This document shows positions 2,024 through 40,728 of a stretch of DNA of 45,266 nt, one piece after another. The stretch is taken from the NCBI GenBank assembly GCA_903858935.1, contig CAIOKO010000069.1, forward strand, positions 1 through 45,266, in the 5' to 3' direction. The stretch's first letter is position 1, and the number at the start of each line of letters is the position of its first letter. A program made the translations under genes and the position numbers. The notes below the pieces were generated by a model, which was not told the origin of the DNA, made no database searches, and saw nothing but the letters and a program-made list of their open reading frames with translations. Origin of the DNA: an uncultured Schlesneria sp. GTDB lineage: Bacteria; Planctomycetota; Planctomycetia; Planctomycetales; Planctomycetaceae.

Positions 2024-3565
2024 ATGGCAAAAGCGCCTGTGGCTTCGAATAAAGAATCGGCGTTTGCCGAACTGGGGCTCGCCAAGACCGTGGCGGCGGT
2101 CTGTGACGAGATTCGGCAGCTTTACCTGTGGGATGAAATCCCCTGGGTGGTCGGGTACAGCGGTGGGAAAGATTCCAGCGCCGTACTGCAACTGATCTGG
2201 CTGGCGATTCGGGAACTGCCACCGGAACAACGTCGCAAGCCGATCCATGTGATCTCCACCGATACGCTGGTCGAACAACCGGTTGTCGCGGCCTGGGTGA
2301 CGGCATCGCATCTGAAGATGCAGGCGGCGGCGACGGAACAGGGATTGCCGATCACGCCGCATAAACTGACGCCTGACGTGAAAGATACGTTCTGGGTCAA
2401 CCTGATCGGCAAGGGTTATCCCGCTCCGCGAAAGCTGTTTCGCTGGTGTACCAGCCGGATGAAAATCAATCCGTCCAACAATTTCATCCGCAGCGTCGTT
2501 CGGGAATCGGGCGAAGCGATTCTTGTCCTGGGGACGCGCAAGGCCGAAAGCCAGCGACGGGCACTCGGCATGGCCAAGCTGGAAGAAAAGCGGGTTCGCG
2601 AACGATTGACCCCCAACAAAAACCTGCCGAACTCATTGGTCTATACGCCGATCGAGGACTGGTCGAACGACGATGTCTGGCTGTTCCTGATGCAGGTCAA
2701 GAACCCGTGGGGACATACCAATAAATCGTTGCTCGGCATGTACCAGGGCGCATCGGCTGACGGTGAATGTCCGCTGGTGGTTGATACGACGACCCCCAGT
2801 TGTGGCAACAGCCGGTTCGGTTGCTGGGTCTGTACGCTGGTCGATAAAGACCGGTCGATGGAAGCAATGATCAAGAACGACGACGAAAAGGTCTGGATGA
2901 CTCCTCTGCTGGAATTGCGGAACGATCTGGCCGACTTCGATAAAGAACCCGAACGACGCGACTACCGCCGGATGAGTGGCCGGGTTCAATTGTTTCATGA
3001 CGGGCTGGTTCGCGGCCCGTACACGAAAGAGGCTCGGGAACATTGGCTGCGGCGGGTGTTGGAGGCTCAACGAGACATCCGCGAGGTCGGCCCGGACGAG
3101 TTTCGCGAGATTGAGTTAATCTCGATGCCTGAACTGCACGAAATCCGTCGGATCTGGCTGTACGAGAAACATGAATTCGATGACAGCCTCCCTGCGATTT
3201 ATCAGGAAGTGCTGGGCGAGCCGCTGCCTGTGATCGCGTCGGACGACAATCTGTTACGGTCCGAGGACTGGTCGATCCTGCAGGAAGTCTGTGGCGACGA
3301 TCCTGAGTTTTTCCAGTTGCAGGCGAGTCTGCTGGACATCGAACGGGAGTTCCGGGGAATGTCACGCCGTGCCGGGATCTATGAGGCGCTGGACGACAGA
3401 TTACGGGCTAGCCAATACGGCAGTGAAGAGGAAGCGTTGGCGATTCGTCAGGATGAACAGCAACGCCAAAAAGATGCCGAGAAAATTGAGGAACCAACGT
3501 CGTTCGTGCAAAAAACTTTATTCGAATCAGCGATGATCGAAGAGGACGACGAGGTGGTTCTGTGA
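2024..3565 (+). CDS. dndC: DndC, phosphorothioation ATP-pyrophosphatase/sulfurtransferase
   Basis: DndC activates the DNA backbone with ATP and takes part in sulfur transfer. It belongs to the PAPS-reductase-like ATP pyrophosphatases and in studied systems carries a 4Fe-4S cluster. The protein is 513 residues, the usual size. The PP-loop SGGKDS is at 46-51. Candidate cluster cysteines are C142 (RWCTSR), C249, C260, C267 and C270 (the SCGNSRFGCWVC block). The start is fixed by AGGAGG eight bases upstream. Its stop TGA overlaps a GTG (GTGA, 3562-3565) that begins a frame reading MILQ, the same first four residues as DndD. This suggests that dndC and dndD originally overlapped by four bases. The family call is very secure. 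Confidence 0.96.
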   Translation: MAKAPVASNKESAFAELGLAKTVAAVCDEIRQLYLWDEIPWVVGYSGGKDSSAVLQLIWLAIRELPPEQRRKPIHVISTDTLVEQPVVAAWVTASHLKMQAAATEQGLPITPHKLTPDVKDTFWVNLIGKGYPAPRKLFRWCTSRMKINPSNNFIRSVVRESGEAILVLGTRKAESQRRALGMAKLEEKRVRERLTPNKNLPNSLVYTPIEDWSNDDVWLFLMQVKNPWGHTNKSLLGMYQGASADGECPLVVDTTTPSCGNSRFGCWVCTLVDKDRSMEAMIKNDDEKVWMTPLLELRNDLADFDKEPERRDYRRMSGRVQLFHDGLVRGPYTKEAREHWLRRVLEAQRDIREVGPDEFREIELISMPELHEIRRIWLYEKHEFDDSLPAIYQEVLGEPLPVIASDDNLLRSEDWSILQEVCGDDPEFFQLQASLLDIEREFRGMSRRAGIYEALDDRLRASQYGSEEEALAIRQDEQQRQKDAEKIEEPTSFVQKTLFESAMIEEDDEVVL

Positions 3566-3909
3566 TTCTTCAATGTTGCCCTCTCGCTCCGAGAGCGGAA
3601 AGCCGAATGCTCGGTTGCCTGATACCGAAATCACGGTTTACCAGGGAGATGATCCTGGTTGGCAATTCGGCTTACATCTCGCGGCGCGAGATGGCGACTT
3701 TTGGAAAGATCCGCAACTTCCAAAGACGCGAACCGACCGCAACCCCACTCCCCCTGCGGGAGTGGTTAACGGGCCTTTGCCCTAGAACAATGAGCTTGGG
3801 AAATCTCGCAGGACTGGTGCAAAGGCCCGTTAACCACCAGGGCGGGCCCGGTGGGGTGGCGTTCAATGACGCATTGGCGATGTGTTTGCGCGGTGAGGTG
3901 ACTCGATGA
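3562..3909 (+). CDS. bridging frame between dndC and dndD, generated by inserted repeat
   Basis: A 115-codon frame begins with GTG inside the dndC stop (GTGA) and ends with the TGA inside the dndD start (ATGA, 3906-3909). It starts MILQ, like DndD, then diverges and runs through repeat element B. The family-B segment in it reads as PLPLREWLTGLCP, and copies elsewhere give similar peptides. No domain was recognised. A likely history is that a roughly 340-bp insertion split the original dndD start, a new start arose, and the open frame through the element preserved stop-start coupling. Whether the peptide has a function is unknown; it may exist only to carry ribosomes across. Its presence as a frame is certain, its being a gene is not. 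Confidence 0.35.
   Translation: MILQCCPLAPRAESRMLGCLIPKSRFTREMILVGNSAYISRREMATFGKIRNFQRREPTATPLPLREWLTGLCPRTMSLGNLAGLVQRPVNHQGGPGGVAFNDALAMCLRGEVTR
3740..3862. repeat. palindromic repeat element, family B, copy 2 (between dndC and dndD)
   Basis: The left arm (about 3742-3783) holds a CCACTCCCCCTGCGGGAGTGG hairpin core, with its last base beginning GTTAACGGGCCTTTGC. The right arm (about 3818-3858) is GCAAAGGCCCGTTAACCAC plus a G-rich tract. About 35 bases separate the arms. This is the best preserved full copy in the window. It lies inside what is normally a compact dndC-dndD junction, so it was probably acquired after the operon formed. Confidence 0.8.
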
Positions 3910-5930
3910 TTCTGCAACAACTAACGCTGCGAAACTTCGGCTTGTATTGCGGCGAACATCTGCTGGACCTTTCGCCCGGCCGCAAGCGGAATCGGGCGGC
4001 GCCGATCATTCTGTTTGGCGGGGTCAACGGGGGTGGCAAGACGACGATTCTCGATGCCATCCAGCTTGTGCTGTATGGTCCCCGTGCCCGGTGTTCCAAG
4101 CGGGGTGACAAATCGTATGACGATTTCCTGCGGGAATCGGTCCATCACGGGGTTGATGCGAGCGAAGGTGCGGCGATTCAACTTGCTTTCCGTTTCGCGG
4201 CGGAAGGGGAAGAACACCTGTATGAAGTCAGCCGGTCGTGGAGCGCTACGCGTGATCGCGTTCGCGAGCGGGTCGAAGTTCACAAAGATGGAGAACCGGA
4301 CGGCTGGTTGTCGGACAACTGGAATCAAGTGGTTGAAGAGCTGATCCCGTTCGGTATTGCGCAACTTTGTTTCTTCGACGCGGAAAAGATCCGGTTCCTG
4401 GCGGAAGATGAGACAAGTTCTGAGGCACTGGGGTTGGCGATCAAGTCACTGCTGGGACTTGATCTGGCTGAGCGACTCGTCGCCGACGCGGCCTCGCTGG
4501 AAACTCGGCTGGCCAAAAAAAGCCGAAAGTCGCCGGACCTGGTGGAAGCGGAACGGCTGGAGCAATTGCTGGAAGCGAAGCAGAACGAGATCGAAGCGGT
4601 GTATCAGGAAAAGGGCTCGGTCGAAAACCCGCGTCAGGTGGCGGAACGTCGTCTGACAAAAGCCGAGGATCACTTTGCCAAGGTCGGCGGCACACTGTGG
4701 AAGCAACGCGAAGAGCAGCAGCGAAAACTGGGTGAACTGGAATTCCAGTTACGCGAGTGCGAAGAGCGGCTGGTGACGCTGGCATCGGGTGATTTGCCGC
4801 TCGTCCTGGTCATGGATCTGTTGCAGGATGTCTCGGCCAGGGTCCAGTCAGAAGGTGCCGCGACGGAAAATGAAATCGTCGGCAAGCTGCTGGAAACGCG
4901 CGATCAACACGTCCTGTCGCTGTTAAAGAGCGAAAAGATTGGCGCGGCGACGGTCAAACGAGTGGCTGCCTTGCTGGAATCCGACCGAACGGCGCGAACG
5001 TCACCCGCTGGTGCGGAAAACCGGTTAATGCTGTCAGACGGTGGCCGACGGCAACTCGACCATTTATTAACGCGGACGCTGAGTGAACATTCTGAAACGA
5101 CCGATCGCTTACTGAAGGATCTCGACACGGGACGACGGGAATTGGAACAGGTCCAGCGCAGCCTGCAGGCGACCCCCGATGAGGAATCGATCCGCGAGGT
5201 GTCGGATGAATTGAAAGAGGCGGCCAGTGAGGCGGCCCGGTTAAAACAACAGGTTGAGCAAATTTCAAAACAACTCGCCAGCCTGCGAAGCGAACATGGC
5301 GAAATTGAAAGCGTGCTGAAACGATTGCGCAGGAAAGTGGTTGACGAAGAAATCCGGACCGAAGAAGAAGGCCGAGTCGCGACGCTGCTGAAGCGAACTC
5401 AAGAAACGATGAAAACGTATCTGAAGGTGGCGACGAATCGGAAGATAGACCGGCTGTCGCAACTGGTTTCCGATTCGTTTCGATATCTGCTGCGGAAGAA
5501 AACACTGGTCCAGCGAGTGCTGATCGACCCGGAAACGTTTGCGATCACACTGGTCGACCAGCAGGGCCGACTGGTTTCGAAAGAACGTCTTTCCGAGGGG
5601 GAAAAGCAGATTTTTGCGATTTCGGTGCTGTGGGGTTTGTCACAGGCGTCGGCCCGACCGTTGCCTGCGATCATTGATACACCGATGGCCCGCCTGGATG
5701 TGGCTCATCGGAATCAACTGGTGGAGCTTTATTTCCCGAGGGCCAGCCATCAGGTGATTATTCTGTCGACCGACACCGAAATTGAGCGGAACTATTTTCA
5801 GAAGCTTCAGCCACAGATCGCTCGGGCCTACCACCTGAACTATGACGAAGCGAAGAAGCAGACCGTCGCCAGTGAAGGCTATTTCTGGGACGCCGAACCG
5901 GTCGATCAGCACGAGGAAATTTCGGTATGA
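3906..5930 (+). CDS. dndD: DndD, SMC/Rad50-like ATPase of phosphorothioation
   Basis: DndD is the ATPase of the Dnd modification complex and works with DndC and DndE on DNA. The protein is 674 residues. A Walker A (GGVNGGGKTT, 38-47) sits at the N-terminus. A long Glu/Arg-rich coiled-coil middle runs from about 190 to 520. The ABC signature LSEGEKQ is at 562-568, followed by a Walker B-like IIDTPMARLD near 592-601. This is the split-ATPase layout of SMC/Rad50 proteins. The ATG at 3906 overlaps the stop of the bridging frame, and the gene ends in a 4-base overlap with dndE (ATGA). No defect was seen in the motifs, so the enzyme looks active despite the insertion just upstream. Confidence 0.95.
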   Translation: MILQQLTLRNFGLYCGEHLLDLSPGRKRNRAAPIILFGGVNGGGKTTILDAIQLVLYGPRARCSKRGDKSYDDFLRESVHHGVDASEGAAIQLAFRFAAEGEEHLYEVSRSWSATRDRVRERVEVHKDGEPDGWLSDNWNQVVEELIPFGIAQLCFFDAEKIRFLAEDETSSEALGLAIKSLLGLDLAERLVADAASLETRLAKKSRKSPDLVEAERLEQLLEAKQNEIEAVYQEKGSVENPRQVAERRLTKAEDHFAKVGGTLWKQREEQQRKLGELEFQLRECEERLVTLASGDLPLVLVMDLLQDVSARVQSEGAATENEIVGKLLETRDQHVLSLLKSEKIGAATVKRVAALLESDRTARTSPAGAENRLMLSDGGRRQLDHLLTRTLSEHSETTDRLLKDLDTGRRELEQVQRSLQATPDEESIREVSDELKEAASEAARLKQQVEQISKQLASLRSEHGEIESVLKRLRRKVVDEEIRTEEEGRVATLLKRTQETMKTYLKVATNRKIDRLSQLVSDSFRYLLRKKTLVQRVLIDPETFAITLVDQQGRLVSKERLSEGEKQIFAISVLWGLSQASARPLPAIIDTPMARLDVAHRNQLVELYFPRASHQVIILSTDTEIERNYFQKLQPQIARAYHLNYDEAKKQTVASEGYFWDAEPVDQHEEISV

Positions 5931-6304
5931 GCCTGAAACAGATTCGCTTGTCGACCCAAGCGAAAGAGCAGTTGATCCGGTTGAAGACTCGAACGGGGAT
6001 TACGCAGTGGAACATCCTGTGTCGGTGGGCGTTTTGTCTGTCGCTGGCTGAGCCGACGCCTCCAACGCCGGTTGAGATTCCCGCCGACAGCAACGTGGAA
6101 ATGAGCTGGACAGTTTTTGGCGGCGATTGTCACGAGCTTTACCATGCGCTGCTAATGGAACGAGTGATCCGAGATGGAATTGAGACGACTCAGGACAACC
6201 TGACGCGTCAATTCCGCCTCCATTTGCATCGAGGGATCAGCTACCTGGCGACTCCGAACAAGATTCGCTCGATCAGCGACTTGATTGCGACGACAATGTC
6301 ATAG
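5927..6304 (+). CDS. dndE: DndE, DNA-binding subunit of phosphorothioation
   Basis: DndE is the small Dnd subunit. The E. coli protein forms a tetramer that prefers nicked DNA and is needed for modification. The frame is 125 residues, typical of the family. The conserved N-terminus is visible: IRLSTQAKEQLIRLKTRTG followed by a hydrophobic helix (WNILCRWAFCLSL). It overlaps dndD by four bases, so the two are translationally coupled. It is the last gene of the cluster: no dndFGH (DNA-cleaving partner genes) follows, and about 700 bp without a recognisable gene separate it from a peptide transporter. Confidence 0.93.
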   Translation: MSLKQIRLSTQAKEQLIRLKTRTGITQWNILCRWAFCLSLAEPTPPTPVEIPADSNVEMSWTVFGGDCHELYHALLMERVIRDGIETTQDNLTRQFRLHLHRGISYLATPNKIRSISDLIATTMS

Positions 6305-37325: not shown

Positions 37326-37553
37326 TCACAGAGCGGCGGCTTCCAGCCGCAGAGGGAATTGCAGAATCGAGAGACGGCGGCTGTAAGCCTCGCTTTCATT
37401 GACACAGAAAGTGGGTACCACGGTTTTACCGTCTTCGGTAAGGCCGTGCTCTTCCGACACCTTATCGCACAATGAAGACACGGCCTTGTCGAAGCCTCCA
37501 GAGTGGCTTCGCCTCAGACCAAAGTAGCCATCATCGCTCCGCGTGATGAGCAT
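37326..37553 (-). other. short reading frame carried by element A, copy 2
   Basis: This 75-residue frame starts MLITRSDDGYFGLRRS in the left arm of element A and contains SEEHGLTEDGKTVV. It aligns with the frame at 1843-1983 over most of the latter's length, with a two-codon gap that keeps the frame. The DNA of the TEDG part also folds as a hairpin (TTTACCG/CGGTAAG) with paired changes relative to copy 1. Coding and structural explanations are both open. Confidence 0.3.
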
Positions 37554-37691
37554 TGTTCGAGAACCTGCCAAATTACAATCCGCACGTTCTCAAATCAGAA
37601 ATTTAAACGGAATATCTGCCAAGATGCTGAGGCAACGCTTGAATCGTTTTCGACGCATGCTCATCACGCGGAGCGATGATGGCTACTTTGG
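37519..37691. repeat. inverted-repeat element, family A, copy 2
   Basis: Perfect 34-bp inverted arms at 37519-37552 and 37658-37691, the same sequence as copy 1. The interior aligns with the reverse complement of copy 1. Similarity continues leftward to about 37415. It lies in the 1-kb gene-poor spacer between glgX and the M56 gene, which otherwise holds family-C repeats. Confidence 0.85.
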
Positions 37692-40182: not shown

Positions 40183-40728
40183 GCGGCGGAGTCTTTTTGC
40201 TCGATTTCAAATCAATCAGCCTCGATTCGTATTTCTTTCATTGCAACAAACATTCAGTCAAGCGCAGCATTGTGGCTTGCAACCCTTTCTGTTATCTGTA
40301 TTATTATTTTTGTTATCCATATTTCAATGACGGCTTTTTGGGGGGCGTCGCGAATGATTTTTAAAGACTGAGCGACTGCTTCCCTAAAAGTGCCAGCGAG
40401 GCTTTGCCTCAGACCAAAGTAGCCATCATCGCTCCACGTGATGAGCATCGTTCGAAAACCTGACAAATTCCGCGCCGCATATTTTCAATAAAAGTATTCA
40501 AACGAAGTCTTTGCTCCGATGCGTCGGCAACGCTTGAACCGTTTCTGACAAATGCTCATCACGCGGAGCGATGATGGCTTCTTTGGAAGATGTCCGGAAA
40601 CTTGAAGAAGTCCGATGCGCTGTCGCATCATTAACTCACCTCATGCCAACCGCAGTAAAAACGCATCACCTCGACCAATCGACCCGGGTCACTAACGAAA
40701 GTCACTTAACGAATCACAGGAATCAGAA
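40183..40728. other. spacer before the GYF_2 membrane protein, holding element A
   Basis: No gene was seen. A T/A-rich tract (40290-40330) precedes element A copy 3 at 40414-40586. After the element there are about 140 bases without visible features, ending in AGGAATC before the next ATG. Confidence 0.5.
40414..40586. repeat. inverted-repeat element, family A, copy 3
   Basis: The arms at 40414-40447 and 40553-40586 match the family arms with one change in each arm. The interior aligns with copy 2, including AACGCTTGAACCGTTT before the right arm. The sequence AGGCTTTGCCTCAGA directly left of it matches the flank of copy 2, so the element extends a little beyond the arm. Confidence 0.85.

Follow-up and report, generated by a model that had tools for sequence, protein, structure and literature searches.

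Repetitive extragenic palindromic (REP) dimers, bacterial interspersed mosaic elements (BIMEs) and REPINs are short hairpin repeats that are dispersed through a genome and form inverted pairs with variable centres, according to the accessible part of PMC3733652. The same part reports REP families from Planctomycetes and GTAG REP termini that often stop flanking open reading frames (ORFs). Miniature inverted-repeat transposable elements (MITEs), such as Chunjie of Geobacter, can stand as inverted-repeat elements within operons, and Rickettsia palindromic elements (RPEs) are palindromic repeats with an open frame through them, which are inserted in frame within genes and code for a conserved peptide (the accessible part of the review PMC10969869). 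In gene pairs that overlap by 4 nt (-4 pairs), termination-reinitiation coupling is nearly abolished at a distance of about 20 nt in six gene pairs tested, as the available part of PMC10666635 describes it. A 45,266-nt stretch of DNA from an uncultured planctomycete, Schlesneria sp. (contig CAIOKO010000069.1; hereafter the window), contains dndB, dndC, dndD and dndE in that order (Pfam and PADLOC), and a palindromic insert between dndC and dndD resembles each of these systems in part.

This junction probably formed by a REP- or MITE-like insertion into an ancestral 4-nt overlap of dndC and dndD, leaving the start region of dndD on both sides of the insert, with dndD initiating by itself and the open frame that crosses the insert being incidental. 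The junction has the following features.

2024-3565, plus strand: dndC, DNA sulfur modification protein; PADLOC DndC, E 2e-196; 86% identity to DndC of the related locus L055.
3551-3573, plus strand: left repeat copy; Shine-Dalgarno (SD)-like GAGGTG and GTG ATT CTT CAA; 4-nt overlap with the dndC stop; taken as a remnant of the ancestral dndD start.
3562-3909, plus strand: open frame across the insert (the "bridge"), 115 codons, MILQCCPL...; no family match; codon use not gene-like.
3572-3712, no strand: palindromic element 1; arms 3572-3608 and 3665-3701, 78% complementary.
3735-3864, no strand: palindromic element 2; arms 3735-3785 and 3814-3864, 75% complementary.
3895-3917, plus strand: right repeat copy; SD word GAGGTGA (3895-3901) and ATG ATT CTG CAA; the present dndD start.
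3906-5930, plus strand: dndD, SMC-like ATPase, full length; PADLOC DndD, E 9.2e-214; MILQQLTLRNFG.

The dndC gene ends in CTG TGA, with the stop at 3563-3565, and DndD begins MILQQLTL from a start codon within ATGA. The two genes are now 340 nt apart, and both are full length with intact frames. The frame across the insert starts at GTG 3562-3564, in a 4-nt overlap with the dndC stop, and its first stop is the TGA at 3907-3909 inside the ATGA of dndD. A preliminary description of this DNA, in which dndC ends in GTGA and the GTG opens a MILQ frame that runs for 115 codons and closes in the dndD ATGA, was thus accurate in coordinates and frame.

The ancestral state of the junction was sought among relatives. 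Searches with DndD covered 59 relatives, 170 genomes from the order and 392 from the phylum and gave matches in 6, 13 and 5 of them, respectively, the own genome being counted each time. A search of genome contigs with DndD alone gave no relative, a scan of viral contigs gave one distant relative (55%), and a scan of plasmid records gave 33 records with a top identity of 61.6% among the matches listed. The junction tally comprises 83 loci, the best 80 of 131 DndC relatives and three loci from the phylum; it includes many similar Streptomyces and is without kinship weighting. Four of the 83 (L060, L064, L120, L121) have no dndD N-terminus in view. Outside the tally stand L006, which has an 11-nt overlap, four dndD loci with no dndC directly upstream (L007, L043, L046, L048) and four that lack the N-terminus (L044, L045, L047, L049).

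The overlap is exactly 4 nt in 44 of the 83 loci and of another length in 21; seven have a gap of 0-30 nt, seven a gap of more than 100 nt, and four are unreadable. The motif RTGATYCT stands at the dndC stop in 30 of the 44 loci with the -4 overlap and in none of the 35 others with both ends visible, a contrast that is partly built in, RTGA being the -4 overlap itself. The closest relative, L055 (on the same contig as L040; DndD 74% identical), has the 4-nt overlap and a MILQQL start, and its junction reads ATGATTTTGCAGCAA / ATGATTTTGCAGCAACTG. In L057, of the same genus, dndD codons 3 and 4 are CTT CAA, matching the left copy in the window. Judged from the relatives' sequences, the ancestral dndC-dndD junction is a 4-nt overlap (RTGA) with dndD starting MIL or VIL. 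Given this overlap and the motif of L055, the GTGATTCTTCAA with which dndC ends in the window most likely represents the former start of dndD. The earlier proposal of an original 4-base overlap broken by an insertion therefore agrees with the 44 loci at -4 and with L055. A normal spacer together with a dndC end without MILQ, the pattern named in that proposal as counting against it, occurs only in other insert-bearing or differently spaced loci, and the closest relative has both overlap and MILQQL.

The start region flanks the insert as a direct repeat of 23 nt, with 18 of 23 positions identical (78%) and the copies 344 nt apart. In dinucleotide shuffles of windows centred on the two junctions, a procedure that makes no use of the insert boundaries, a match of 18/23 was attained in 2 of 2000 and one of 15/20 in 39 of 2000. 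RTGATYCTNCAR occurs in the 45-kb window, on both strands, at 3562 and 3906 only. A dndD start on both sides, as the preliminary description had it, is thus borne out by the direct repeat and by the ancestral motif at the dndC end. The repeat itself would have arisen as a target duplication at insertion.

The insert holds two inverted-pair repeats of genome-dispersed families, most likely REP-dimer or MITE-like; the order of the two insertions is something that we infer. Each arm of element 2 has its own CCAC..GTGG-type hairpin and a TTAACGGGCCTTTGC tail. The arm of element 1 is also present elsewhere in the host genome and belongs to a separate dispersed family. The genome searches scored only part of the first-look candidates and their copy numbers are lower bounds; the element 2 arm has at least 99 matching pieces in its own genome (E up to 10, self included; 40 of 142 candidates scored). 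The 19-base core of element 2, with at most one mismatch, has 104 matches there (48 forward, 56 reverse), and a reversed control pattern has none. Among 40 genomes the core is found in five, all of one genus: the own genome G000 (104), G001 (124), G005 (100), G004 (40) and G002 (1); it is absent from 10 further genomes of that genus. A scan of 29 loci gave eight paired copies of element 2, 138-249 nt long, with unlike centres of varied length.

High copy number, a short imperfect palindrome and inverted pairs with a variable spacer are shared with REP dimers and BIMEs. Two features differ. First, the GTAG or CGTC tags of REPs are not seen at the hairpin feet, which by eye are AACCC/TTAAC-like. 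REPs are also associated with a Y1 (RAYT) transposase flanked by the repeat, and one of the 13 loci matching Y1_Tnp in the own genome lies near an element 2 arm:

L183:1083-1760, minus strand: Y1-type transposase ORF, 173 aa, similar to REP-associated tyrosine transposases (RAYT-like); element 2 arm about 120 nt upstream.

The other 12 Y1_Tnp loci have no arm. The L183 transposase is suggestive only as a possible source of the family, and the 104 core matches in a 7.9-Mb genome weaken the link. Second, unlike REP dimers, the insert stands inside a former 4-nt overlap and has a start on both sides. Of the features of MITEs, terminal inverted repeats are found in the arms of both elements, but a target duplication of constant length is not, since 14 other paired copies lack a flanking repeat and the window insert alone has one. 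Unlike RPEs, the open frame here lies between two genes, the element 2 copies have differing centres, and dndC ends before and dndD begins after the insert, both at full length. Neither element attains the gathering score of any Rfam family, and a structured RNA of a known family was rejected for this reason.

The same junction carries inserts in other lineages. The gaps of more than 100 nt are those of L056 (300 nt), L057 (137), L058 (457), L059 (229), L102 (172), L081 (310) and L129 (228). All seven lack RTGATYCT where dndC stops, and the best repeat of 24 nt that spans the junction in them matches at 12-15 positions versus 18 in the window. A search for own-genome repeats covered L056, L058 and L102, and repeats fill all three junctions (76, 68 and 66 matching pieces, respectively, at E up to 0.001, counting both strands and the insert itself), with no start duplication and no open frame. 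By eye, the inserts of different lineages are unlike in sequence.

Some of these junctions have features of their own. In L081 (Verrucomicrobiales), positions 4545-4862 hold a DUF1016_N (PF17761) fragment, E 7e-23, with 4-nt overlaps with both dndC and dndD. In L057 (1364-1560), the conserved dndD N-terminus LLLQQLSLRNFG has CTG where relatives have ATG or GTG, and none of ATG, GTG and TTG stands there in frame; this dndD has a non-standard start or is a decaying gene, and the insertion there did not keep a normal start. In L059 (4246-4474) and L102 (4252-4423), which are of one genus, the right edge of the insert is common and the palindromes in the middle differ, a pattern of turnover of repeats at one site. 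The repeat at L058:4507-4963 has a 98% copy at L058:7147-7311, about 2.6 kb downstream near the dndD end, and may thus fill a second, neighbouring junction of the operon too.

The well-supported branches of a DndC tree of 19 rows require three or more switches between overlap and insert: one in L058, one in L059 and L102, and one in the clade of the window, L055, L056 and L057, where L055 retains the overlap and the tree gives no firm order. Because regaining an exact 4-nt overlap seems less likely, these changes would be three or more insertions.

The present dndD start has signals of its own. Its SD word, GAGGTGA, is 7 nt long and stands 4 nt before the ATG; that of the left GTG is 6 nt long. 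At 16 other dndD starts, of relatives chosen from the 79 in view, the SD words are 3-5 nt, and that of the window is the longest of the 17. The -4 pairs of PMC10666635 resemble the junction of dndC and dndD in its ancestral state and, in the window, the two ends of the 115-codon frame; dndC and dndD themselves, now 340 nt apart, lie far beyond the coupling distance unless the 115-codon frame is counted as a gene. By analogy with those pairs, the distance limit speaks against direct coupling of dndC to dndD but not against a relay through the 115-codon frame. With the strong SD word of dndD and the loss of coupling at about 20 nt, dndC and dndD would now be translated independently, and the insert would have been tolerated because an SD word and a start stood on both sides.

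The course of events would then be as follows. In an ancestral dndBCDE operon, dndC and dndD would have overlapped by 4 nt (RTGA), with dndD starting M/V-I-L; before insertion the site would have read GAGGTG, a few bases, then RTGATTCTNCAACAACT. Two genome-dispersed inverted-pair palindromic repeats would have entered the overlap, leaving a junction segment of about 12-23 nt (SD word, start and first codons) on both sides. The left copy still ends dndC and the right copy starts dndD, which would be freed from coupling to dndC and initiate at GAGGTGA-N4-ATG. The 115-codon frame would then follow from the start retained in the left copy and the ATGA stop retained in the right one, with an insert between them that has a fitting length and is stop-free in frame.

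Several observations weigh against this reading. First, the 12-nt core of the repeat is weak evidence, 10/12 being attained in 414 of 2000 shuffles at any position near the two junctions; the case for a duplicated start therefore rests on the length of the repeat with its SD word and chiefly on finding the ancestral motif in exactly its ancestral position, and not on the 12-nt core alone. Second, a flanking direct repeat is absent at the 14 other paired copies in the own genome, so target duplication as a general rule of these families was rejected. These 14 are eight element 2 places, five element 1 places and an inverted repeat at 1705-1877 of the window, all with both arms close together. 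Single arms, wider or same-way pairs and repeats of the same place were left out of the 29 element 2 loci; of the 12 element 1 loci, L140 and L146 were excluded as well, and the remainder were the window or duplicate places. In this flank test the boundaries of the window insert were fixed after the repeat was known, and the window's P value there is biased. Third, the same site was not found empty in a strain, dndC being present in just two of the 15 genomes from this genus, the own one among them. Fourth, the tree cannot say whether an insert was gained or lost, and it leaves horizontal transfer aside. Fifth, the codon score of the 115-codon frame (-0.085 log-odds per codon) is at about the 94th percentile of its own base shuffles (mean -0.247, 95% point -0.083). 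Lastly, the sequence that flanks relatives of element 1 is GGATTTCTTCCAAAGTAGCC-like and, if two gaps are allowed, resembles the left GATTCTTCAATGTTGCC.

This last resemblance offers another source for the left MILQ. It could be the outer flank of element 1 (GGATTTCTTCCAAAGT.GCC), which by chance supplied a dndC stop and a likeness to the dndD start, dndD having kept its sole start throughout. In many of the 26 aligned copies of the family the hairpin arm is preceded by GGATTTCTTCCAAAGTAGCC or a close variant of it, and REP termini that supply stop codons to flanking ORFs are described in the accessible part of PMC3733652. Such a flank must be aligned with two gaps, whereas the ancestral start fits 12 of 12 positions of RTGATYCTNCAR ungapped and in the exact -4 register, and the GAGGTG common to both copies is left unexplained. 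An origin in the flank is therefore rather unlikely.

Another explanation is that the insert has been recruited to act as RNA, with the two pairs of hairpins setting the DndC:DndD ratio through transcript stability, pausing or processing. The predicted RNA fold of 3551-3945 is very stable (-171.6 kcal/mol, z -6.29), and hairpin repeats stand at the same junction in several lineages. Any long inverted repeat folds in this way, however; the lineage inserts are dissimilar, the closest relative has no insert, and the insert matches no Rfam family. In addition, simple consensus scans of the insert found no terminator-like or promoter-like site, and a terminator or promoter there was rejected. The strong predicted fold leaves room for what may be an effect on the transcript, but a co-opted regulatory role is unlikely.

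The preliminary description also suggested that the palindromic insert acts as a translational bridge. Ribosomes that finish dndC would start again at GTG 3562, translate the palindromes for 115 codons and pass to dndD by way of the second ATGA; in a further version, selection keeps the frame open, sparing the operon an untranslated structured gap and keeping DndC and DndD coupled. The exact -4 overlaps at both ends, the 6-nt SD word before the left GTG and the position of the codon score among its shuffles fit this picture. So does the rarity of the frame: in 5000 dinucleotide shuffles of the spacer, that frame is open in 2.6% and at least one of the three frames in 5.5%. Since the frame must also be in phase with the TGA of ATGA, the chance falls about another 3-fold by our own estimate, to roughly 1% overall for a feature picked post hoc.

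The non-coding frames of the window are themselves open for 115 codons at similar rates, 3.5% on the plus strand (1164 of 33,384) and 2.4% on the minus strand (953 of 39,751); these are frames outside ORFs of at least 250 codons, short true genes not being removed, and the rates are high if anything. The lowest-scoring 115-codon chunk of five window genes has a log-odds of 0.050 per codon versus the -0.085 of the bridge, the five being the training genes themselves, and another frame of the same stretch outscores it at 0.015. The 115-aa product has no Pfam match at E 0.1, no PADLOC match at 0.001 and no match among phage records at E 1. With codon use that is not gene-like and no match in these sources, a real small gene was rejected. 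In the -4 register the frame is closed in L056, L057, L058, L059, L102 and L129; it is open, with -4 overlaps at both ends, only in L081, the one other case among eight insert-bearing junctions, and the L081 frame is inherited because the insert there is a DUF1016_N gene fragment. These comparisons do not support the bridge: the frame lacks the codon use of a gene, its counterparts in five other planctomycete inserts are closed, and dndD has a strong SD word of its own. A working relay is quite improbable, as is the version with selection for an open frame, and the open frame is probably a by-product of the insertion that is not translated to any effect.

An artefact of assembly is very improbable: although the source is a draft of 280 contigs and draft assemblies fail at such repeats, dndC and dndD are complete and in frame, the contig runs on into dndE, and repeat inserts stand at the same place in other assemblies.

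A palindromic repeat in an operon is a known kind of event; the translation start on both sides is the special feature here. The open-licence literature searched gave no example of overlapping genes parted by an insert that has a start on both sides, which is a weak negative. The insertion favoured here would mean that a tightly overlapped gene pair can absorb a 340-nt repeat insert with both genes kept, given a ribosome-binding word and a start on both sides. The different palindromic repeats at the dndC-dndD junction of other planctomycete lineages would be natural replicates for a defence operon losing its translational coupling. If the relay were true after all, a selfish palindrome would have turned into a spacer whose translation couples two defence genes, and L081, where -4 overlaps join a DUF1016_N fragment to both neighbours, would be another instance.

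At the following junction, between dndD and dndE, the overlap is intact.

5927-6304, plus strand: dndE; Pfam DndE, E 2.8e-43.

Its start overlaps the dndD stop by 4 nt (ATGA 5927-5930). The dndD-dndE spacing is readable in 68 of the 83 loci, at -11 in 19, at -4 in 16 and at other lengths elsewhere. It is -4 in the window, L055, L056, L059, L063, L066 and L102; L061, L062, L065 and L068 have gaps of 3-22 nt, L081 is at -17 and L129 at +86, and L057, L058, L067 and L071 are unreadable. The overlap is retained in four of the five readable insert-bearing relatives (L056, L059, L102 and L081, not L129).

Other repeats were seen near these genes. In L007, L043, L046 and L048 a similar short GGAGGGCTGACGCCACTCCGCTCGCC-like stretch stands just before the dndD start, another repeat at the dndD 5' end. 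In L060 (1960-2250) a AGTCCTTTCCGGCAGAAAGGACCTACCAAACAC repeat array follows dndC, with no dndD match in about 3 kb downstream. Between dndB and dndC of the window, the repeat at 1705-1877 is a perfect 35-nt inverted repeat, CCAAAGTAGCCATCATCGCTCCGCGTGATGAGCAT. Its motif forms two further inverted pairs in the window, at 37521-37689 and 40416-40584, and is also found elsewhere in the genome, often beside a GAAACTTGACTCATTGAGTCAAGTTTC palindrome.

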